Source of the DNA: Glandiceps talaboti
Lineage: Eukaryota; Hemichordata; Enteropneusta; Spengelidae
Reading direction: 5' to 3'
NCBI RefSeq assembly: GCF_964340395.1
Contig: NC_135549.1
Span: 17,480,842 to 17,544,841 of the forward strand
DNA: 64,000 bases
The notes beneath the pieces were generated by a model that did not search any database, was not told where the DNA came from, and saw only the letters and a list, made by a program, of their open reading frames with translations. How positions within the stretch are numbered: position 1 is the stretch's first letter; every line of letters starts with the position of its first letter. A program made the position numbers and the translations under genes. Positions 22,304 through 63,558 of the stretch are shown here, piece after piece.

Positions 22304-22487
22304 ATCTATCATAGGGGTCTACACAGCAGATATATGAAATGATTGTGAGTGTGCAAACATTAAGATGATGGAAGAACTTCAAGATATCAGGCATAACCCT
22401 GAAAACGTCGTCTGGAGTGAACCACATTTAGTGATACTGAAGAAAAATGATGAAGATAACCTTGGTGTCAAAGTGAAAACATGTCAG
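22304..22487 (+). CDS. PDZ-Death gene, first coding exon (5' part untranslated)
   Basis: A pyrimidine-rich acceptor (ttttactgctttcag) ends at 22303 and the donor CAG|gtagat starts at 22488. Translation starts at ATG 22365, 27 bases after an in-frame TGA. It encodes 41 residues ending TCQ and supplies the first two strands of PDZ1, with W17, EPHLVIL at 19-25 and the loop NLGV at 32-35. The acceptor implies at least one untranslated exon further upstream, which I could not locate. Confidence 0.75.
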
Positions 22488-25400
22488 GTAGATAAAGTTT
22501 TGGGTACTTTGTTATTTTATATTTTGATATGTTTAAGTTTATTTATTTGTGGAAAGAGTGATAAAAACACAAATTAAAAGTGTATTCCAAATAAAAAGGA
22601 AAAGGAAAAAAAAAAAAAAAATTGAAACATACCCAAACACAGACATATCTGTAAATATGGGAATGTAATAAAATGAAAATATATACAGATGTGTGGCAAG
22701 AGAGAACAAGTTTACATGCAAGGTTCAAAAATTAAACAAACTGATGCAAAACAAATTGTCTTTATATTTAGAGAAATCTTCAAATGATTTTAAAACATCA
22801 TAAGAATCCACATGAACTACCAAACCAGAGTGACTATAGAGTTTCCATTTGGTGACATTATCTTTTTGCATCTCACATAGTGTATTGTATTATGACTTTA
22901 AACACAAACAAAATACAATCACTGATAGCATGCAGACTTGATATGTTACATTTTATCTCACTGAACACAAATAAACAGTTCTCTGTTTGAATCTTTCTTG
23001 TTTCATCCAACAGTGATGTTGATTTGTGTTCACAATGAGACGAAATGTATCATTTTGTATGCTTGTGTGCTATCAAGTCAATGTCTGTATTTTGTAACAA
23101 TAAAACCTTGTATGAGATGTAAAAAACATTATGCTGCTCTTTTGGTAGTTATAAAACACCATGCTGCCTAATTGAAACTCTATAGTCACTCTGGTTTGGT
23201 AGTAAAAAAAGCACCATGCTGCCTACTAACTGAAACTCTACAGTCACTCTGGTTTGGTAGTATTAAAACATTGTGCTGCCTCATTGAAACTCTGCAGTCA
23301 CTCTGGTTTGGTAGTAAAAAACACCATGCTGCCTAACAAACTCTATAGTCACTCTGGTTTTGTATAAATAAAATAAAATAGTTTGATGAAAATTATCCAA
23401 CCATGAAATATAGAGCTTGGAGAGAATATGTATATCAATTTTGTGCCCACCCCACCCCCACCCTCCCCCCAAAAAATCACAAAATTAATAAATAGTTATC
23501 CAAACATAGTAAATAATACCAAAACAGATAAAGATACAAACCATCACATATCACAAACTCAAATGTCAGTAATTTTAACAAACTCAGTATTTGTGTGTAT
23601 TCTCAAACATTGACATTTATAAATTATATATATACCCAAATTCTTGCAACATACTATTAAAGTTTATGCCCAGGAGTAAGACCCGATCATAATATTTATT
23701 ATTTATTAATTCATACGTGACATTTTAGAAGATTGATGTAGCTTCATAACTTATTGATAATGTACTAACACTAAATAATATATATATGGTATAGTGGTAA
23801 AGATCACAGTCACTGTGGTGTAAAAATTTGTGGGCTGTAAACCTTATTATACCTGAAGTAAAACTTTACCACCCATGCATTTCATTAAACTAACAATCAC
23901 TTCATATCTTGGCCAACAGCATGACATCCTGTACGCACTACGCTTGTATTAATTATTACAGAGGGGCCATGGAAATAAATCAATTGCCATATTGTATTTC
24001 GACCCTGTAGCGTGGGGTAAAATGCTATTACAAGAATTGAGGATTTTTTTCTATGAATACAAATAAGTGGAATAACGAATGTTTTCCATGGAGAGTGGGC
24101 AGGACAAGACTTCTTATTCACTAGGGATAATGAATGGCAGTCAATTTGAATTATTTAGAAATGTATTAGAAAGTGGTAATAATTTCTTTTGCTGTTTCGC
24201 AGCTGGTTTTTACTTGGATTAAAAACATTGATTATTTCTTGATGTTAAAAAAAAACCCCGTGTATTTCCTATCAGTGGAAGGAAAAGAAGAAATAAAAGC
24301 AACTAAAAAACTAACACAATGGCTGTTCAACATATTGAAGGTGATATCCACAGAATGCTGGTTTCATTGGTTAATTGATTAATTTGATTGATTTGGCTGA
24401 TTTGATTGATCAATTGATTGGGTAATGTAATTGATTGATTGATTGATTGGTTGATTTGATCGATCAGTTCATTGATCAACTTGAATGGTCATTTAAATTG
24501 ATTGATTTATTGATTGATTGATTTAATTGTTATGAAGAAAGTGTTCAATCCTATTTTACAGTCTTCGTCATTGAAGACTGTTTTTTTTGAAATGATGATG
24601 CCAGAACTGGCAGAATTTCAACAAATGGTGACAGATGATATCATTTGTGCATAATTTTTATGTAAAATATGTTTAACAGCAGACAAAATTACATCACGAC
24701 TGCAGATAGAGTGGGTACTAGTGTAGACTCTATTTTTGCAATTTCTAAAAACCCTTGAAACCTGCCACCTTCGTGTCAGAAAGTTAATTGGTAATTTTAA
24801 AGTAGCAAGATTTTGCTAGTTACTAATTGTTGTTTTGCAGACATGCAACGAACACTGTTGTCGGGCAGAACGTCTACGAAAAATATTCCTGCCTAATTTG
24901 TAGTCAATTTAGGGGGGGGGGGGAGGGAGGAGGGTCACCATAACACTATTTGCTTCCCTAAGGCTCAGGAAACTAATTGTGTTGAGGTGACCACTCTCCC
25001 TGGAGGGAACAATTTGATGATGTTGCTCTCGTGACCATGCAGTCATCATGTACACAATGCATTATGTAGCTACATGTATGAGTTGAATGTTGAATGTTTC
25101 ATACGGTACATGTAACACATGTGAATTGCGTGAATACTGACTATTTTGTAAGTACTATTCCTTCTGCCTGTCTTCCTTAACTGCATTGAATTGAATGTTG
25201 CCTCATCTCTCTCTCTCTCGCTGCCATTATCCTAGTAAGTGCACCGTGGTCATATAAATGCAGCACTTCTTGTATGTCATATAGAGATCTAAGGGCGCTT
25301 AAAAGCCTTAGAAAAGTCAATGTGATCCCATGTATTAAATTGTAAACAGAGTCCTTCTAAGGATGATTTTTCCTACTGCCTTTATGTCAGATTATAGGTG

Positions 25401-27972
25401 TAAAGTCACAAAGTGAAGCACATTATCTAGCAATATTGTATGAAGCTTTGTAAACCTTATCCTCAGCTTTTCAAGCGAGAATGATGACTGTCGATCCATT
25501 CAAAACGATACAAATCCATTGATAAAGAGGCACTGAAATGAAGGCTTTTTTTATTAAAAATCGTGAAATCACAGGGTATCCTTTCCCTTCAAGAAAGATT
25601 TTTATTTCTTGTTCAGTGATTTATAATGGCCATCAGATCTCAACCAAGAATTTAACACAAGGAAAGGAGCTAACGCAGATTCCTATGATAAATTATGTAT
25701 AGGAGCATGTCATCTCATGAGACGAGATATTTCAAATAGGTTTAACACAGTCTCAGAGTCAGTTTATTCATTTAGTTTTTTCATGGATATATGACAGTAT
25801 CTTTCTATTAATAGCACTGACATTGTTGTCATAGTAATGGGAAATCCTAAAACCATCCATTAAAGCCAGGAAAAGCCTGGGGTGAGTAATAATGTGTATA
25901 TTTCATCAGCTGATATGGTTCTACATACAGTATTCTGTCACCTCCTGGGTATCTCATTGCATGTCTCATTGCAGGGTCGGATCAACTCAGAGGACAGCTA
26001 TACATTAGTCACTCAAGTCAGGCAGAAGTGTTCGGAACAACGGCGGGACAAACTCAATGCAGGTTATCGAATCATCGCAGGAAATGGTATCAACATCACT
26101 CGTATGTCTCAAGACCAAGTACTGAAGACTCTTACGAACTACAACAATGGGGAAATGCGGCTTCTCGTCAGTTACCCACTCCGACTCCGAGATAATGTTC
26201 ACATGTCAGCCCCAATTGATAACATTCTTGAGAAGGGGAACCCAAGGGATTCTTTAGACAATCAAGTCTCTGGTCTTGTGAGGGCTAATTTACAGAGGTG
26301 TCGGTCTTCCGAGAGTGAACATTCAGTGTCTCTTAAAAGTATGTCAGACGGGCCAGAACAAATCAAACATGAACAGCACACATCAAACATGTCAAGTCCA
26401 CATCATACAAGCAGGGAACGAGCAGACAGGGATTATAAAGGTGCCGGTTGCAAACTAGATAGTAAACAACTCAATTCTAAAAGTGGGTATCAGAAACACA
26501 TGACCATGTTGGAGGCAGGGGAAGCAGACATTGACATGCACTTTCCGAGGCACAATCCACTAATACAACAAATTGCTAGCGGTTATGGCAGCCCCAGTAA
26601 ATCTTCCCACAGTTTACCAATATCTCGTACATCGATGGGTTCACCTATAAGAAGTACATCCTTGCTACGTTCTCCAATGCAGAAATCACACTCTCTGTCC
26701 ACGACTGATGAATTATATGACATCACGTTAGAAGAACCTCATTTAATAGTGTGGAGTACTCCGTCTAAGGGGATTGAAATACGGCGAGATAGTGATGGTA
26801 AATTAGGCTTCCGTTACAAAGAGGTTCAGGTAAGTTACACTAAATATCAGCTATAATTAAGTCAAAAATGAAATTAGAAAGTAAAAGTTATTATTGAAAT
26901 GATTGAAAAAAAAGGCTAATATCAGTAATGCTGAATTAGAGATGTGATTCTGAGGGCAATTTTCACATTTTTCGTATCAGGATCTCGTGCCAAAAATTTA
27001 CTCTATATATTGGGTACGTATGTAGCAAATTGTGGACATATATGTGAAGTGTCTATAGTACTGTACTCTTTTGTTGAAATATAAGTTATCTCACGTATGT
27101 GGCTGCTTCCCTGTACAAATGCCATGGATTTCTGTCACACAGTCATACTTAAAAAGGAACTTACACATTGCAAATCTAGTTGTAAATTATGGCAAGCAAT
27201 TGTGTATCATAAAGTGAAAAAGGAAATGTCTTGAAATGTATGTTTTAGATTATTTTAAGTGTCTTCAACAACCCATCATATTTAATGACACTGACCATGA
27301 AAATTGTTAGATATCAAAATGATACCATGCGATCCATATTGACCTTTGACCCAGGTCTGGAATAGCAATCATTCTCGTATTCAGAGAGAGCTTCGTGTCC
27401 TAATTAAGGACACAGTGTGTTACATACATGCACTCAGTAAATGAGTTATTCCAACAGTTGGTGCATGCCATGCATGTTATGACCTGCCCTCAATAAGTGC
27501 TTTTGCATACACCAGTCCATCACATTTTATCATGGAAATAAATCAACGGGAGTGAAAAACCCCCTGCATCCATTTTTCATTTACTGCAATTTAAGTGGGG
27601 ATGTCTGAAAGCAAGACTTTCTCATATTTAATTTCATATACATTTATCTTGATCCATCAATGTTGTGTGTTTCATAATGAGAGTGTTATTAGTTCCTGTA
27701 TTCTAATCATGATTTATTACTGAGATATATACGTTGTAAAAAAGTGACTCTGTAGGTTCAACTTCCTGGCAAAGTATATGTATCTGGTTTATGTGTTTTC
27801 ATTTATCATGTAAAGGGGCCAAATGGATTATAGATGCACATCACTTTTCATACACTGTTTAACTGAAAAAAATGACACGTAGCCTTAGCCTTTATTTTTA
27901 CCGTAAGTTGAAGATCTACGTTTTAGTATTTACAGATAACACACACTCTCTGTCTCTGTCTCTGTCTCTTTC

Positions 27973-28057
<85 letters not shown>

Positions 28058-28166
28058 GTCTGTCTATGTCTGTCTGTCTGTCTGTCTGTCTCTGTCTGTC
28101 TGTCTCTGTTTCTGTCTGTCTGTCTGTCTGTCTCTGTTTGTCTGTGTCTGTTTCTGTCTGTCTGTT

Positions 28167-28209
<43 letters not shown>

Positions 28210-30074
28210 CTCATTCTCCTCTCTCTGTCTCCTCTGTGCTCTCTTTCTCTTTCTTTCTCTCCTCTCTGTCTTCGATCTCTTTCTTTCTCCCTCATTCCCT
28301 CCATCCATGCCTATCTGATCTCTCATTCTCTATGGCTGCCTATTTGGTCTGTCTGTCATATACAGATTGGATGTGATGTAGTCATTACTTGTTTACAGAT
28401 CACTTGGTCTTTGTTGTTTTTTCACATAGAAAAACTTTGTAAAGTTGTGTTTAAAATTCAAAGTAACGTATTTCTCATCTATATAGCCACTTTACAGTAA
28501 TCTGCACAAAGTTTTGCTTCAAATGCCATATTCAATCAGTAAATCAATGTTTTCTCTTTGTCATCAATGGACTTGTTTGTACATCACATAAATCACGGAT
28601 TGATATCACAGTATATATTTTGTCTTGTGTGTTTATTGCATGAAAGGCCAAAGGCCTTCAGAACATACAAAACACTTCAAAGGGGCACAAGCTGAGTTTA
28701 TACTTGTTTAGGCATAGTTTATGTTACATAATTTGAAAGGTACTTGCAGTATTGTACTTATACTAGAGCACACTTAACCACCACTTCCAATTGACTGCAC
28801 TCAAACCTGGTACTAAGATATAGCCCATAAACGATCCGATGACATAATTTATCATACGTATCAAAAAATGTTCAGGAAATCTGTACTATGCATTACACTG
28901 TTGTAACCCTGCCAGAAGACAATCATAATGTTATAGAAGACATGTATCGACATTAACATTATACTGGAAAGTGTATTTATTTCAGTATTTTCACTTGTTT
29001 GCAAACTCAACTTGTGCCACTGTAAACAAAATAAAAATCCCTAATGCTGAAGATACTGTCAAATACATATTTGAACTAAATCTCTCTGTTAGATCTATAT
29101 TTAGTAGTCTAAAACGTAAAATATAACAACATCATTACATTATCCACAGAGTTGTATTAAAAAATGACAATTACCATTATGTAACTGTATAGTCAGTAAC
29201 ACTAACCTCAGACCACTAGTTGTCTGCGCACTAACTATTTTTTTTTGTATGTATATATTGATGGCCCATGTTATAAACCTGGCATGGCATCTACATCTGT
29301 ATAAATTGATTTTAATATTGAGATGAGCAAACTACAGCAAGAATTCATTGATATCGATTGGTAAAATGACACTGTAGAGTGTTGTGAGTATACATGAAAT
29401 ATAGGTGCATGTCTACATTCAGTAGATGTGTGTACTGATGAGAGAGAGAGGTACATATAATAGTTGTATTGTGGTTGCTATGGTTTCCAAACTGAAGTGA
29501 CATCTATGGCCATCTTTGGGTATTATTAAATGGACTCATAATTTGTAATACTTTAAAGGTGATAAAGAAATGTGTCTTTCCGTCGTTGCCTGTGTTGTGC
29601 TAATGTGGCGACCATCTTGTGTTTTTTTTAGAATACTTGTTTGCGAAAGGAATTAAAGGGCCAGTAGTGGCATGGAAAGATGTTGTATCCATGTCACTAC
29701 AGACATGTGGGTGAAATATGGCAATGGGGTCCAGTATGCTAACAAGAGTGATTTCACAGTTTACATGATTTGATATCAAAAAATGTATTTATGTATTTAT
29801 TTATTTATTTATTTATTTATTTAGTTTCCCATCAACTGTCAGCCACTTAAGAATGGAAAATTCAAATTCCATATTTTAGAGATGTTTTTCAAAATAGAGT
29901 AATTAATGTTCACGGATAGTTTTTGAAATTGATAACTTACGGAGAAGTTTCCAAATATAAAATGTGAAATTTCCCCTTATGATGTGTATATTTATCTTTG
30001 TAATAAGCCCAATAAAAACATGATTAAATACAAAAAAAAATTAGTTGCTATTATGTGATGATGATAACAGCAGC

Positions 30075-30114
<40 letters not shown>

Positions 30115-33058
30115 CAATGATAATGATATGTCATATTATTCCAAATATGGTCGTCACTTGTATAATACCCACATGCCCTAGTATTAAAGAAGCAGGAGGA
30201 AACCAGAGTACTTTTTGAAATCCTGCGTTGTTCAACAGGATCAAACTGAGCATCACTTTCCTTATAAATCTGGTTAATTTTAATTAAAACTCAGCTGATG
30301 TTGGCTGGGTTCAAACCAGACTATGGTGGTAAGAGGCATATGAACTACTCAGCTTCTGACAATCCAATTGCAAAAAGCTAAAAAATGTGTAAAATGTTTG
30401 TTATTCATATAATAACAAGGATTTTGGATATTTTATTAATCTTGTGTACTTTATTGAGTTACAAACAAGGACTTGGTATATGTTGTTTCACATTGATTTT
30501 TCAAGTAGGAAGCCATTATAAAATTGTTGTATGAATTAAAGATCCAAAATAAATATCGAATTCTTATCTATATGGCCACTTAAAGTGTAGGATTTATCTA
30601 CTTGTGTGTCCTAAACATATCATTAATTCCCTCTAGATGTCTCGTAAATAGTTTATTTCCAGGACATGTGTTTGCTTCATCCAGTGACGTAGAAGTCAGA
30701 GTTTCATGTATTTAATGTCATATTGTGTTTTTCCTCTTCAGAATAAAGAAGACCCCAGAGAGGTATTCACTCTTGTAAAAGAAGTATTTGCAAACAGTCC
30801 TGCGTTGGGACATTTACGGAAGGGTGACAGGATTCTGTCTGTGAATGGACAACATTTACAGGACACTAGAAGGGTAAGAATTGAGAGATGACCAACAGCT
30901 TAGCTAGGAAAGGGGTATAGCTGTAGAAAAGAAACCATTGTAATTATATTTAGTATATTCCAAGTTGAAAATTTATGACACGATCAGCGAAGCAAAATGC
31001 TGTTTTTACCAGACTTGTATCAGATCAACCAGTTACATTTCATGATACTGAGTTGACTGAGTTTATGAGATGAAATAATATTATTCTTGTTATTTCAGGG
31101 TATCAATACAGCATCTATAGTCAGCAAAAGTCAAGAAGATAAAGTCCGAGTCGTGATCCAACGACCGATGAGTCTACGCGAGCGTAAACCAGTCACCACT
31201 ACTGATATTGTTATAGACGTAGCAAACAGTACGGAATCAGCATCAATGAGAGCCTCTCCAAGGAATATAACACGGAGTGCTTCCAAGTCACACCAGCTAA
31301 CCAGTTACACGGCGGAAGGAAAGAAACGGCCTCACAGTGGCAGCAGTTCTTCGCAGGGTAACAGTACTTCTAATTCCTATACCTCCAGACCCATACACGT
31401 ACAGGAAGTGACATATCAGACAGGGCAACAACATGTTGATGACATACCTCACACTCTACAGCACACCACCATTACTCCGACTATTAGACCAAACTTTTTA
31501 CCGTGTGAAAACCAATATAATCCTCAAATTGCACCCCAAAATGGTCTCCATACTACCTATCACATGAATGATTATGTTGACCACTCACGTATGGATTCTC
31601 TGGATAATCCAGTATTGGTATCCATGGCAACAGAGGCGATCGATATAACAATTCGATCAGGACACCCAATGACAAACGGCATGAAGAAAGCATGCAGCGT
31701 ACAGCTCAATATTGCCCCATCTCCTCATGTCTCCCCAGCTCATACACCCACAAAAGCAGAGGTGATTCCCATGGAAACCATACCTCCTCTCTCTACTCCT
31801 ACACCAACTGCAAATGGATGTACATGCCTGGCACGTTGGAATATTCCTCTCAAGGACTCTTTTAAGAAAATAAGTGGTAAGACGAAATGTGAGAGTGCAC
31901 GAAGACCTGCAACAGAGTCACAGGAAGTCAATCGTAATGTGGAGAAGACGAGTTATGGAAATGAAAAACTTCAAAACAAGGTAAAGTTGAATAGAATCTG
32001 TAAGCTGCTGGTTGAAGCCTAGGCTCAGTCAGGACTGTCACAGTAACACGTCAAGGAATAGTTAGTCCTATGTAGTCTATGAGGGCAGCCACAGTACAAG
32101 GATATTAGCTAGAGTACAAGTATGCAGTAGATATCAGTACATACAAAATGGCCGTTTTCTGCTAGCGATGCTCCCCCAGGCTGTGAGAGAGTCTAGTTCA
32201 AGCTGTGTCATTGCAGTTTTGTTTCTGAATGGCTAACGTCCTTGGGCAAGATTTGGACCACAACTGCATGTGCCATAGGGCAACTCGGCTGTAGGTTGCA
32301 ATGTACTCTATTGCTCCCCATGGAGTTGAGGACATTTCATAGGGCTGTTGTATCTTTGAAAATGTGTTACATTCTTTGAGTATGTCTGTCTAGTTTAGAT
32401 TTCATTATTTTATATTTGTATGGAGATGCATTGTCAGTGGTATCCCTAGGATAGTTATTATTATCAATGCGTGTCATGGTATCCTTAAGATACCTTTCAT
32501 TAATGTTCAAAGTGCTTCCCAACAATGTTTATTAATGTTGTTGTGTACAAGACAAAGATATTGCAAGTCTAAATTGTTACGCTACAACAAGCTCAATTTT
32601 TTTGAAGTTATTCTTAATGTATTTCTTATTTTTGATTGTTGCAGGAAAATAAACAGAATTACAAGTGTGACTCTGAGAACAATGCTGATAGAGGAGTTGG
32701 GACACAGTCTACTAAAGTCTGTATGGAAACTCATATAAGGAAATTACCCTGTGGTTTGCTGTCTATTATATGCCAATATATGAATGTCAAAACACACACA
32801 GGAATGAGAGATTGGAGAGGTTTGGCAGGTGAGATTAAATACAGGAAATATTATACAGTGTTGCACTTTATTGGGATAAAATGAGATAAAATAGTGGTCT
32901 ATCATGTCATAATATAAAATCACCATATTTGGTGGTTTGGTTGGGAATGGGATGGGATGGGATGGGAATGGGATGGGATGGGATGGGATGGGGAACGGTT
33001 CATCCCTTATTACTGGCTGAATACCTAGAATAAGAAAATGTAAATGTAAAGGTTATCT

Positions 33059-33121
<63 letters not shown>

Positions 33122-33177
33122 TGTCTGTGTCTGTGTCTGTGTCTGTCTGTATGTGTGTGTCTGTGTCTGTCTGTCCT

Positions 33178-33238
<61 letters not shown>

Positions 33239-33715
33239 GTATTTCTGTCAGTCTATCTATCTGTCTGTATGCCAGTCTATTTGTCTTTGTATGTTGTGTC
33301 TGTCTGTCAGTTTATCATTCTTTCCATGTGAGAAAAAGGTAATAAATTCAGACCATTTCTTTCAAAGTGAAAATACTGTCAAGGTCAATTCTGTTAACCT
33401 CCATGAGGACTTTGATAGAATGTAATTACTTATAAAGACCCTTAGCAAAGCACTTGGGACCTAATTACAGAGCACTTTGAAGGTATCAGGTCAAAAAAAT
33501 ACATCTTTTGTGATTGATTTTCAGATGAAATGGGAAAAACGATAGAAGATATCTATGTACTGGAACAGACAGATGATCCGTGTAAAGCGTTACTCAAAGA
33601 CTGGGGAACTCAATCTAATGCTACCCTAGGTAGACTATTACAAATGCTACAAAACTCTAAATTAATGAGAGAAGATGTGGTCTCAGAAATCAACAAATAT
33701 CTGTCCTTATCATGA
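22365..33715 (+). CDS. PDZ-PDZ-Death domain scaffold protein (six coding exons, 788 aa)
   Basis: Coding exons: 22365-22487, 25975-26829, 30742-30873, 31099-31980, 32645-32828 and 33525-33715. Every junction is GT...AG and the phases agree (0,0,0,0,1), giving 788 residues. PDZ1 spans about residues 21-110, with carboxylate-binding loop NLGV at 32-35 and a typical second half ([20 protein letters not shown]). PDZ2 spans about 297-393, with loop KLGF at 317-320 and [15 protein letters not shown]. The linkers (111-296 and 394-694) are rich in Ser, Thr, Pro and His and look disordered. Residues 695-785 form a Death domain: DWRGLADEM around W721 and the motif [19 protein letters not shown] at 743-761, closest in my reading to MyD88 and IRAK/Pelle. 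There is no signal peptide or membrane segment, so it is probably cytosolic. Known for the families: PDZ binds C-terminal peptides and MyD88-type Death domains oligomerise in Toll/IL-1 signalling. Inferred: an adaptor joining the two. The start follows an in-frame TGA at 22335; a further 5' exon is possible. Confidence 0.85.
22817..23365. repeat. Inverted copy plus four-copy tandem repeat in intron 1 of the PDZ-Death gene
   Basis: A 29-base segment at 22817-22845 (ctaccaaaccagagtgacta, then tagagtttc) is perfectly inverted at 23174-23202. It recurs in the inverted sense at about 23230, 23286 and 23337, about 56 bases apart and each preceded by accatgctgcct-like sequence. Confidence 0.75.
24383..24530. 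repeat. Degenerate (TTGA)n repeat
   Basis: Repeated ttgattgattga units with ATC/AAT interruptions inside intron 1 of the PDZ-Death gene. Confidence 0.8.
25975..26829 (+). CDS. PDZ-Death gene, exon 2: rest of PDZ1, linker, start of PDZ2
   Basis: The acceptor cattgcag precedes GGTCGG and the donor CAG|gtaagt follows at 26830. Both ends are phase 0 and it encodes 285 residues (42-326). Residues 42-110 complete PDZ1 (helix B region [12 protein letters not shown]). Residues 111-296 form a Ser/His-rich linker with repeated SxSP-type sites that could be phosphorylated. Residues 294-326 begin PDZ2 with EEPHLIVW and the loop KLGF. Reading past the donor reaches a stop at 26856. Confidence 0.88.
27945..28300. 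repeat. (TGTC)n microsatellite in intron 2 of the PDZ-Death gene
   Basis: A long pure TGTC/CTGT run (about 27975-28060) followed by variants and a CT-rich tail. Long Cys-Leu-Ser or Asp-Arg-Gln frames on the two strands are artefacts. Confidence 0.95.
29780..30114. repeat. (ATTT)n and (AAC)n microsatellites
   Basis: An ATTT run at about 29786-29822 and an AAC run at about 30070-30114, both in intron 2 of the PDZ-Death gene and separated by unique sequence. Confidence 0.85.
30187..30360 (-). mobile_element. tRNA-derived SINE-like element, copy 1
   Basis: Read on the minus strand it starts with an A-box-like aagctgagtagttcatatgc and a B-box-like ggtttgaaccc about 30 bases later, as in RNA polymerase III promoters. 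A body ending ggtttcctcctgcttct follows. The same arrangement occurs at 44598-44780. Confidence 0.5.
30742..30873 (+). CDS. PDZ-Death gene, exon 3: core of PDZ2
   Basis: The acceptor ttcctcttcag precedes AATAAA and the donor AGG|gtaaga starts at 30874. It is 132 bases, phase 0 at both ends, encoding residues 327-370. It carries the PDZ2 strand B-C region ([19 protein letters not shown]), the turn [10 protein letters not shown] and the start of helix B. Confidence 0.88.
31099..31980 (+). CDS. PDZ-Death gene, exon 4: end of PDZ2 and long linker
   Basis: The acceptor gttatttcag ends at 31098 and the donor AAG|gtaaag starts at 31981. It is 882 bases, phase 0, residues 371-664. The first 23 residues finish PDZ2 ([10 protein letters not shown]). 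The rest is a hydrophilic linker rich in Ser, Thr and Pro, with a Ser/Asn-rich tract ([15 protein letters not shown]) and a TPTPTAN stretch before a short basic segment ([11 protein letters not shown]). Read-through of the donor adds 13 residues and stops at 32022, which would give a form without the Death domain. Confidence 0.85.
31981..32644 (+). other. Intron 4 of the PDZ-Death gene
   Basis: Bounded by gtaaag and gattgttgcag; no repeat or exon seen. A stop at 32020-32022 would end a protein read from exon 4 through this intron. Confidence 0.7.
32645..32828 (+). CDS. PDZ-Death gene, exon 5: first half of Death domain
   Basis: The acceptor gattgttgcag ends at 32644 and the donor GCAG|gtgaga starts at 32829. 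It ends in phase 1, so a GAT codon is split across the intron. It encodes residues 665-725 plus one base: an acidic/polar lead, then helices 1-2 of the Death domain ([17 protein letters not shown]), then the conserved DWRGLA with W721. The frame joins exon 6 cleanly as GLADEMGK. Confidence 0.82.
32940..33310. repeat. (GGGAT)n, (GT)n and (CTGT)n in the intron within the Death-domain region
   Basis: A GGGAT/GGGAAT run at about 32943-32992, an exact GT run at 33061-33120, then CTGT to about 33310. All lie between the two exons that encode the Death domain. Confidence 0.95.
33525..33715 (+). CDS. PDZ-Death gene, exon 6: second half of Death domain and stop
   Basis: The acceptor tgattttcag ends at 33524 and the stop TGA is at 33713-33715. 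It encodes residues 726-788. The segment [20 protein letters not shown], then [16 protein letters not shown], matches the helix 3-5 region of MyD88/IRAK Death domains, where a DP pair, a D-W-G or A-W motif and a T/S-V/L-G motif recur. The last residues (YLSLS) do not form an obvious PDZ ligand. Confidence 0.85.
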
Positions 33716-57599: not shown

Positions 57600-60236
57600 A
57601 TAAATCATGATTCTTCTTGGTGACTTTAATATTAACTTGTTAGTTAATAACGCAAAATGGACATCTACTATTGAATATTTTTGTCTCAAGCAACTCATTG
57701 ATACACCTACCAGAACAACTGATACTACTTCTACCTTAATTGACCATATATATACCACCAACCCTATAAATTATTCTAACACAAGAACAATATCTCACGG
57801 ACTCTCCGATCATTCCCCCATCATGACAGTTAGAAAAATCCATTCAACCAGAAAATCGGACCATAACATTATCACTTACAGATGCTTACGTAACTTCAAT
57901 GTAAACAACTTTGTTAGTGACCTGAAGTCAGCAGACTGGTCAACTCTGCAAACTACAAACGACCCTGAACTTGCCCTAAATAGTTGGATTTCAACTTTCT
58001 CCAGTATCTTCAACAAGCATGCTCCACTCAAATCCAAGCGAGTTCGTTATGCAAATCTACCTTCCTGGCATACCCTTGAACTTCATAATGCACGCAACGT
58101 TAGAGACAAGTTGAAAGCTTCAAATAATACCGTTGAATACAAGAAACAAAGGAACTACGTAAACATGCTTACATCATCCCTCAGGAAAAATTATTACTCT
58201 AAGCTTATTGCCGACAAATCCCATAACATCAATATTTGGAAAGCCATTCATGATCTTCATCCCAAGTCTTCTCCGTCTAAACCCTCAAAGCTATATGTTG
58301 ATGGCACTGAACTGACATCTTCTATGGATATTGCCGAAGCTTTCAACAGACATTTCACTGACATTGCAGACGCTCTCAACAAAGATATTATGCATGAGAC
58401 TTTTGATCCAACTAAGTTAAATAATTTTGTTGACTCTAAAGACATTCATTACAGCTTCCGAATTCCACTAATTTCGCAAACGAAGGTTTTGTAATTCCTT
58501 CTAGATTTGGATACTTCTAAGTCAACCGGGTATGATTTTATAAGCGCTAAGATTTTGAAATCTACAGCTCCTTATATTGCTACACACATTTTTAGAATTG
58601 TTAACCTCTGCATAATCAATAATCACTTTCCATCTGCTTGGAAAATTGCTAAGGTGCTTCCTTTTCATAAAAGTAATTCTACTGATAAATGCTCCAATTT
58701 TCGACCCATTTCTATTCTACCATGTTTATCCAAACTTTTAGAATCCCACGTTCACCAAAGTCTGTATCTTTATCTCAACAAGTTTAATCTTCTTTATTCG
58801 TTTCAATCGGGCTTTCGTCCGGGTCATTCTTGTCAGACTGCTCTCACTTATTTCGTTAATCAGTGCTATACTGCAATAAATAACAATAACTGGAGTGGTA
58901 TCATTTTTCTTGATCTCTCTAAGGCCTTTGATCTTATTAACCATTCATTGCTTATTGAGAAACTTAAACTCTACAACTTTGATTCTTCGGCTATAAATTG
59001 GTTCACTTCATATCTTAAGGACAGAAAACAGTTTGTTTCCTTTAAAAATAGCAATTCTTCCATGTTATCTATTAAGTCTGGCGTCCCTCAAGGTTCTATC
59101 CTTGGTCCTCTTCTTTTCCTCCTTTATATCAATGACCTCCATTTAGAAGTTGAACACTGCCATACTAATACCTATGCTGACGACTCTACTCTTCTATTTT
59201 CCTCCCCTGATATTTCCATAGTAAATCAAACTATTAACGATGATCTGTCTAAAGTTCACACCTGGTGTAATCAAAACCATATGATCATTAATACAAATAA
59301 ATCTAAAGCTATGGTAATTCCCCCTAAAAAGAACCTTTCTTTGCCCACTTCCTTTTCTGTTTTCTATAACAACGCGTCTCTTTCTTTCAGCGAAGTTGAA
59401 AAATCACTCGGACTTATCATTGACTCTACACTCTCATGGACTTCACATTGTCAACATTTGCATGCAAAAGTATCTTCTAATCTTGCAGCTCTTCGTCACA
59501 TTGCTAAATACTTAGATGTATCTACTAAAAAACTTTTCTACTTTAGTTATATTCAGCCCTTTTTTGATACTTGTTGCAACATATGGTCTCATGCAAGTAA
59601 AGGTGATATTGACAAATTATATAAACTTCAGAAGCGTGCAATCCGGCTAATTTTAAATATTTCTACCATTGAAATGCAACCCAAAGGGATTTCCAGTATT
59701 GACCTTTTTAAACGACTTCATATTTTACCACTTGAAAAGAGATTTCTATTTAATAAGTACATTCTGATTTTTAAATGTCTACATAACCTGGCTCCTATGT
59801 ACCTCTCTGACCTCCTTCATAAAAGGAGTTCAAGTAACCAAATGGGCACCCGTTCCTGCACCAACAATCTTTTGTATTTACCATTTCCAAATTGTCGTAT
59901 TTTTACTCAGTCATTTAGTTTTGAAAGCTCCAAACTTTGGAACATTTTACCTACTCACCTTATCAGTATTACGAATTTAACTTGTTTCAAAAAATCTTTA
60001 AATTCATACCTATTTGAATCTCTTTAATCCTTTTACATTGTCTGTGGTCATACAATTTTATCTCTTTTACGTTTCATACTTTTTAATGTTTTTCAATTTT
60101 TATGTGTGTTACCTTGTTTTGTTTTTGTTGTTGTATTGTGTACATTTGCTTTAGGGCCCCTGGGAAGATTAGGCTGGACCTAACAGGGTCACCCTTTTTC
60201 TTTTTGAAATAAAAGTCGTTATTATTATATTATTAT
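57600..60236 (+). mobile_element. 5'-truncated CR1/L2-like non-LTR retrotransposon
   Basis: The coding frame starts abruptly at about 57600, immediately after a stop codon, in the middle of the endonuclease, which is the usual result of incomplete reverse transcription. After the stop at 60027 there is a T-rich 3' untranslated region, an aataaa-containing end (tgaaataaaagtcg) near 60210 and a short (TTA/ATT) tail to about 60236, as in CR1/L2-type elements that end in microsatellites rather than poly(A). Apart from one stop the reverse transcriptase is intact, so the insertion seems young. Confidence 0.85.
57607..60027 (+). pseudogene. LINE ORF2 (endonuclease C-terminus plus reverse transcriptase), one in-frame stop
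   Basis: A single reading frame runs from 57607 to 60027 and is broken only by TAA at 58492-58494. The first part (295 codons) is the C-terminal portion of an apurinic-type endonuclease: LLGDFNINLL near the start and the conserved GLSDHSPI. The second part (506 codons from 58507) is a non-LTR reverse transcriptase: FRPISILPCLSKLLE, GFRPGHSCQTAL, motif A LDLSKAFD, motif B GVPQGSILGPLLFLLYINDL and catalytic motif C TYADD at 59170-59184. The end has the usual SKLWNILP and NSYLF motifs. The frame resumes exactly at LDTSKSTG, so the stop looks like one point mutation. The N-terminal endonuclease half and any ORF1 are missing because the copy is 5'-truncated. Best fit is the CR1/L2 side of the non-LTR tree. 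Confidence 0.9.
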
Positions 60237-62334: not shown

Positions 62335-63454
62335 TTATCGTAACGGTTGCATATGTGACAGAAATTTACCTTTCCCGTCATTAGTTGGAGAGACTTTGTA
62401 GTCCGCAAGTCTTCTGTTTTCGACTAAAATTGTAGTCTCGGTTGAAAACCATGACGTCAGGTGTTGACAGTACTGTCGTCCATCTTGAATGAAGGTACCA
62501 ATATTTCTTAGAAATATCAACGTGTCTTCTCTCAAGTAGTTCAAAGTATCACAGTCTTCTGTCACTGCTTTCTTTAATTGTTGAAAAATTCCAAGTTCTC
62601 TTTCGAATTCCTCTCCATATTCACGTACTTTCCGCCACAGTGTTCTGTTGAATCTTTGGTATAATTTGAGATCGGCGTAATTCCACCTGTTGATTTTATC
62701 ACGAGTGGATGGATTCGGACTTGAATCCCTATGACTTACTCTTCTCGCGACGTACAAAATGTCTTCCATGTCCCAACAAAGCAATTTCTTGAGTAAAATC
62801 AGCGATTCATCGTAATATTCTGTCACTAACACGAAGCCAAGTTCTCTTTCTAGATAATCCAGGTACTTTGTGACGATTTCTTCGTTGTCGTGGTATTCAT
62901 GATCAAGGCCAAAATGAAACAGCTGCCCATTTTGGGTGACTGACCAAAGCATAGACCTGTAGGCCAGTTGACGTCTGAAGAAATCAGGCTTTGAAAGAAA
63001 CTCATCGATCGATATATGTTTGCCCTGATTCAGCGCTTTTGAAATTTCAAAAAAGTTATAAGCGGACGGGAAGTTATTCACGGGATCTCTGACAATTGAC
63101 AAGAAAACAGTATCGATAACTGTCGGGCTGAAACCTAAACTTTTATCTTTGCATTTTACTATATTTGTTCGAGACGGTAGTAAAACTCGAGGTCTTGAGA
63201 CTTTATCTTCTCTTGAATCGTAATTTAGTCCATTTACGTGGTAAAACGTCATAAAACCACAATTCTCTTTGGATGAATGGATGGTTGCCTCCATTTTCAT
63301 TTGCAGTCCATATTTTCGACTGACTTTGTGAATAAGGGTCACTAGCGTGGTGCTTCCCGTTTTACGGTTGAACATATAAGCAACATCATGTTTACGTGAA
63401 CAGGTAGTGTTGTTCCAGCCTCCGACTGTTCGAGTTGTTTCATCGGGAAAGGAT
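62335..63454 (-). CDS. Galactose-3-O-sulfotransferase-family protein, large 3' exon (partial)
   Basis: The exon begins after acceptor tttgtttacag (ending at 63455) with one base completing a split codon, then runs 372 residues to TAA at 62335. The family transfers sulfate from PAPS to the 3-OH of galactose on glycans or glycolipids, in the Golgi lumen. Visible motifs, numbered from the exon start: two overlapping N-glycosylation sequons at 14-17, the 5'-phosphosulfate loop RKTGSTT at 30-36, the 3'-phosphate motif IVRDPVNNFPSAYNFF around R122 and S130, EYYDESLILLKKLLCW, and NRWNYADLKLYQRFNRTLWR. Gal3ST1-4 carry the same series. The cytoplasmic tail and membrane anchor must be on an upstream exon, probably beyond 64000. 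An alternative donor (AAAG|gtaaat at 62370) could add a further exon instead of the last 12 residues. Confidence 0.82.
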
Positions 63455-63558
63455 CTGTAAACAAATAAAATAATTCAAAAGAAATTTAAAGACTTCACTG
63501 GAAAATTAACAATACGTTAAAGCCTATGAACTGAATGACCGTACCCATAATATAACAT

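Follow-up and report, generated by a model that had tools for sequence, protein, structure and literature searches.

CARMA or CARD-MAGUK adaptors (CARD10, CARD11 and CARD14) have a CARD at the N-terminus as well as a coiled coil and an SH3-GUK region. Two further proteins bear on the gene described here: p75NTR is a receptor with a cysteine-rich ectodomain and a membrane span, and FAP-1 binds Fas by a PDZ domain. Acorn worms are models of early deuterostomes, and in one of them, Glandiceps talaboti, we analyzed a window of 64,000 nucleotides (contig NC_135549.1, positions 17,480,842 to 17,544,841). It contains a gene for a protein with two PDZ domains (PDZ1 and PDZ2) and a C-terminal Death domain. 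Judged from sequence, the domain architecture is real and conserved across three families of hemichordates, and from it we infer the function proposed below.

The gene lies on the plus strand (22365-33715), and its six exons splice to 2367 bases that encode 788 residues and a stop codon. All five introns have GT..AG ends; four are in phase 0 and the last is in phase 1. The original prediction had given these exons, splice sites, phases and product length from the DNA letters, and splicing and translation reproduced them all. The spliced translation is identical, letter for letter and over its full length, to isoform X1 of NCBI LOC144438711 from the same species (P0001), whose product is named 'uncharacterized protein'. 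The locus was already annotated, and the protein database lists precomputed Pfam domains for its product. The novelty lies in recognizing the PDZ-Death combination, its conservation and the apparent PDZ duplication.

An optional intron within exon 4 is spliced out in NCBI isoform X2 (P0002). This protein of 661 residues lacks residues 457-583, which correspond exactly to the intron, and retains all three domains by Pfam. In the predicted X2 protein, PDZ2 and the Death domain are connected by a tether that is 127 residues shorter. Introns 2 and 5 contain long simple repeats (27930-28310 and 33050-33250) made up of TG and TCTG runs.

A Pfam search of the whole protein matches PDZ in two stretches (expectation value (E) 1.5e-15; best at residues 309-391; 57.7 bits against a curated cut-off of 23.2) and Death (PF00531) at residues 719-784 (E 1.2e-10; 41.8 bits against 22.6). 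The Death match spans positions 16-85 of the 86 in the profile, leaving the first Death helix outside. Five open-frame pieces were also scanned separately, and three of them match: PDZ in exon 2 (7.2e-5) and exon 3 (6.8e-7), and Death in exon 6 (2.2e-8). The pieces from exons 1 and 4, scanned alone, have no Pfam match. The profile searches bear out the identities and approximate limits first proposed for the two PDZ domains and the Death domain.

PDZ2 is a firm PDZ domain in both sequence and fold. Putative carboxylate-binding loops, KLGF in PDZ2 and NLGV in PDZ1, are present in the sequence at the expected position, which we take to be where PDZ domains bind carboxylate. The two domains are of one distinctive PDZ sub-kind and look like tandem duplicates. 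A lead-in with a tryptophan opens each of them (VVWSEP, IVWSTP), and in each a phase-0 intron falls at the corresponding alignment position, after ..KTCQ and ..KEVQ. The profiles of PDZ1 and PDZ2 match each other (93.5% probability, E 2.4e-7, 99 columns, from profiles of only three and two sequences). Since a profile match may arise between PDZ domains in general, the duplication reading rests on this shared intron site and lead-in.

A search with the whole protein returned five rows. Apart from the query and its isoform, these are a Ptychodera flava protein of 805 residues (P0003; 48% identity over 100% of the query), a Saccoglossus kowalevskii protein of 488 residues (P0004; 47% identity over 58% of the query) and P0005, considered below. 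PDZ and Death domains thus occur in one predicted protein in Glandiceps, Ptychodera and Saccoglossus, genera that represent the Spengelidae, Ptychoderidae and Harrimaniidae, respectively. Both PDZ domains are present in two of the three (Glandiceps and Ptychodera); the Saccoglossus model is short and begins near the middle of PDZ2, so it carries only part of that domain. The Pfam Death scores of the Ptychodera and Saccoglossus proteins are 34.0 and 41.5 bits. Since the architecture recurs along the whole length of the Ptychodera protein at the identity given, it is, on sequence evidence, not a chance product.

Identity between the Ptychodera and Glandiceps proteins is highest in PDZ2 (80 of 97 positions), followed by PDZ1 (69/98), the Death domain (54/96) and the two linkers (78/164 and 120/274). 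For the Saccoglossus protein the figures are 51 of the 69 aligned positions in PDZ2, 59/95 in the Death domain and 109/257 in linker 2. Identity in the Death domain is just moderately above that in the linkers. These domain and linker identities suggest that selection may have maintained the PDZ-Death combination. Two short motifs, one in each linker, are retained amid otherwise variable linker sequence.

Among solved sequences, a single-sequence search places the Death domain nearest to MyD88 (2.6e-8) and then to p75NTR (4.4e-6). A three-sequence profile search gives p75NTR (6.2e-9) and MyD88 (6.4e-9). A six-helix Death fold had been expected at residues 695-785. The Glandiceps structure model does have six helices there (700-709, 721-727, 732-739, 744-754, 759-767 and 775-786, with a further short helix at 694-697), but the agreement is weak, with block means of the predicted local distance difference test (pLDDT) of 39-64 across residues 691-788 in this low-confidence model. 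The long linkers are unstructured in the model, with pLDDT under 50. In the Saccoglossus model, the Death region has five helices of at least four residues and a 3-residue stub at the position of the third helix. Its closest listed structure rows include the Death domains of MyD88, IRAK4 and p75NTR, at low Z scores of 4.0-4.7.

The original prediction also called the protein lineage-specific. The full PDZ-Death architecture was found only in hemichordates; however, protein searches of this kind cannot prove absence elsewhere. A search with the Death region considered 33 candidates and gave three matches, all already known. It missed the Ptychodera protein and is no evidence of absence. An alignment search, which scored only the 7992 candidates that shared most words, returned seven rows, three of them new (P0006-P0008) and without a Death domain by Pfam; P0005 was not returned. 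P0005 is a 463-residue piece, from a record whose longest contig has 1632 bases, with a PDZ domain and no Death domain by Pfam. It is identical to PDZ2 at 55 of 121 positions (E 2e-30), compared with 30 of 121 for PDZ1 in the same register (E 0.002). Its PDZ is of the kind seen in PDZ1 and PDZ2, and it is the one close relative of PDZ2, a module that may therefore be wider in distribution. Among open papers, no report of a PDZ-Death protein was found, and literal phrases gave none. Many new Death-domain combinations are described in amphioxus in the available part of one report (PMC2575513), a paper in which the word 'pdz' occurs 0 times.

The best explanation, to which we assign a probability of about 0.55, is that the gene encodes a multidomain adaptor that works inside the cells of enteropneust hemichordates and combines PDZ docking with Death-domain recruitment. 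Such an adaptor is most likely cytoplasmic. The parts, their order and their conservation are observed, and from them we infer every binding event in this scheme. PDZ2, and less surely PDZ1, would hold partner proteins, probably at membranes, by their C-terminal tails or by internal motifs. As docked chains cluster, their Death domains would come together and could then assemble with other Death domains, candidates being MyD88-, IRAK- or p75NTR-like partners. Because p75NTR is reported in Saccoglossus in the part of a study available to us (PMC2772990), it is a possible receptor partner there. As to origin, a PDZ unit would have been duplicated along with its intron, and exons for a Death domain joined to the gene, before the divergence of the three families.

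Several observations weigh against an adaptor of this kind. PDZ1 is divergent: the exon-2 frame barely passes Pfam (23.5 bits against 23.2, for a piece that includes 37 residues read from intron), and the PDZ1 profile matches PDB sequences weakly (best GRIP1, 0.0029). Because NAGYRII replaces the RKGDRIL of PDZ2, PDZ1 may not be a peptide binder. Structure models are of low confidence overall (mean pLDDT 35.9 for Glandiceps and 40.1 for Saccoglossus). PDZ1 has no confident fold in the former. In the latter, PDZ1 and the beginning of PDZ2 are missing, and the PDZ part that is present matched no PDZ chain among the rows listed. Comparison of the C-termini of the three orthologs revealed no common PDZ-ligand end. 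The sole shared TRAF-type pattern is TLEE, which lies in the PDZ2 lead-in of the Glandiceps and Ptychodera proteins, a part that the Saccoglossus model lacks.

Similar parts could serve other ends. Death domains also occur in structural and guidance proteins, as ankyrins and UNC5 show, and the protein might be an epithelial, neuronal or ciliary scaffold, unconnected with immunity or cell death, in which the Death domain serves only for dimerisation or docking. The PDZ2 profile has 102 PDB matches, and the 60 listed are led by PDZ domains of the scaffolds DLG, InaD-like and MPDZ, and a second PDZ-PDZ gene about 10 kb away on the opposite strand has PDB matches that include harmonin and PDZD7 PDZ domains. 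However, among solved sequences MyD88 and p75NTR are the closest to this Death domain, and neither ankyrin nor UNC5 is among the listed matches of its single-sequence and profile searches. We regard this structural role as rather unlikely. In the Pfam scan the chain shows neither a catalytic nor a second effector domain, and the three orthologs have no TRAF-type motif in common, as might be expected if the protein were a brake. Its Death domain would then occupy a MyD88/IRAK- or p75NTR-type partner without relaying the signal, and its PDZ domains would keep this partner at a particular place on the membrane. MyD88-like adaptors also lack a catalytic domain, though, and no measurement favors a brake over a recruiter; we doubt this reading.

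NCBI gene models are predictions, and neighboring PDZ and Death genes could in principle have been fused by the model. But phases are compatible across all five introns, and in two other species, too, PDZ2, linker 2 (with the Saccoglossus identity given above) and the Death domain are predicted as parts of one protein. A fusion artefact was rejected on the strength of the same joining in both orthologs, and is very improbable.

Table 1. Features of the window, with positions counted from its first letter
Feature	Positions	Strand	Residues	Remarks
Exon 1	22365-22487	+	1-41	Start and first PDZ1 strands; donor gtagat, phase 0; start of Ptychodera protein matches
Exon 2	25975-26829	+	42-326	Most of PDZ1, linker 1, PDZ2 start
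Exon 3	30742-30873	+	327-370	
Exon 4	31099-31980	+	371-664	PDZ2 end and linker 2
Exon 5	32645-32828	+	665-726	Linker 2 end and first Death helices
Exon 6	33525-33715	+	rest of 726 to 788	Stop
Optional GT..AG intron in exon 4	31358-31738	+		Spliced out in NCBI isoform X2
PDZ1	22407-22487, 25975-26187	+	about 15-112	Second Pfam PDZ stretch; exon-2 frame alone 23.5 bits
PDZ2	26740-26829, 30742-30873, 31099-31167	+	about 297-393	
Death domain	32735-32828, 33525-33706	+	about 695-786	Pfam Death; MyD88, p75NTR nearest
Linker-1 motif, 15 residues	26305-26349	+	152-166	Identical in Glandiceps and Ptychodera
Linker-2 motif NGCTCLA	31813-31833	+	609-615	Identical in all three hemichordate proteins
Six-exon neighbor	50579-49914, 48280-48030, 47765-47669, 46268-46175, 45316-45203, 44389-43404	-		735 residues; two PDZ-like regions
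Galactose-3-O-sulfotransferase-like open frame	62338-63474	-		Pfam 5.7e-37
Retroelement-like remains	57604-60024	+		Two consecutive open frames; reverse transcriptase piece 5.4e-35; endonuclease piece 2.2e-4, below curated cut-off

Other features of the window are included in Table 1. Open-frame pieces of the six-exon neighbor, the second PDZ-PDZ gene mentioned above, match Pfam PDZ once at 2.2e-7 and a second time at 7.1e-4, the latter below the cut-off. Its PDB sequence matches include DLG4 (the best), KIAA1526, PDZD7 and harmonin, and we would guess that its putative helical N-terminus is like a harmonin-homology domain.

Known systems share different parts of the proposed adaptor. MyD88 supplies the closest solved Death domain in the single-sequence search. 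In contrast to MyD88, the Glandiceps chain ends at the Death domain and carries PDZ domains instead of TIR, which is absent from its Pfam scan. The Death domain of p75NTR (TNFRSF16) is equally near in the profile search, but no TNFR repeat is found by the Pfam scan of the Glandiceps protein. For Fas, PDZ proteins are coupled to a Death-domain receptor in trans. GRASP65 tethering Fas through a PDZ domain is the authors' speculation in the available part of one paper, where FAP-1 with Fas appears as a cited title (PMC7493689). These pairings involve separate proteins, whereas in Glandiceps PDZ and Death domains belong to one chain.

CARMA proteins are alike in placing a Death-fold module and a PDZ domain in one adaptor chain, with docking and assembly as the corresponding roles suggested here. 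The Glandiceps protein differs from them in having a C-terminal Death domain (PF00531), with other parts in a CARMA-like layout. No CARD, SH3 or guanylate kinase domain is found in its Pfam scan to E 1, so both CARMA-specific features tested are absent. Because CARMA proteins probably originated by a fusion in early jawed vertebrates, according to the part of a report available to us (PMC5978004), the likeness would be convergent. It is tempting to speculate, although we lean against it, that hemichordates evolved a CARMA-like machine of their own, independent of the vertebrate CARD-MAGUK fusions. Its PDZ-tethered chains, with a tether whose length is set by splicing, would seed MyD88/p75NTR-type Death assemblies at chosen membrane proteins. 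LOC144438711 and its orthologs provide a named, testable protein in acorn worms. If its Death domain assembles, the protein would be a second, independently built link between membrane-tail recognition and Death-fold signaling, beside CARMA. The essentials of such scaffolds would then be docking and assembly, whichever domains serve.

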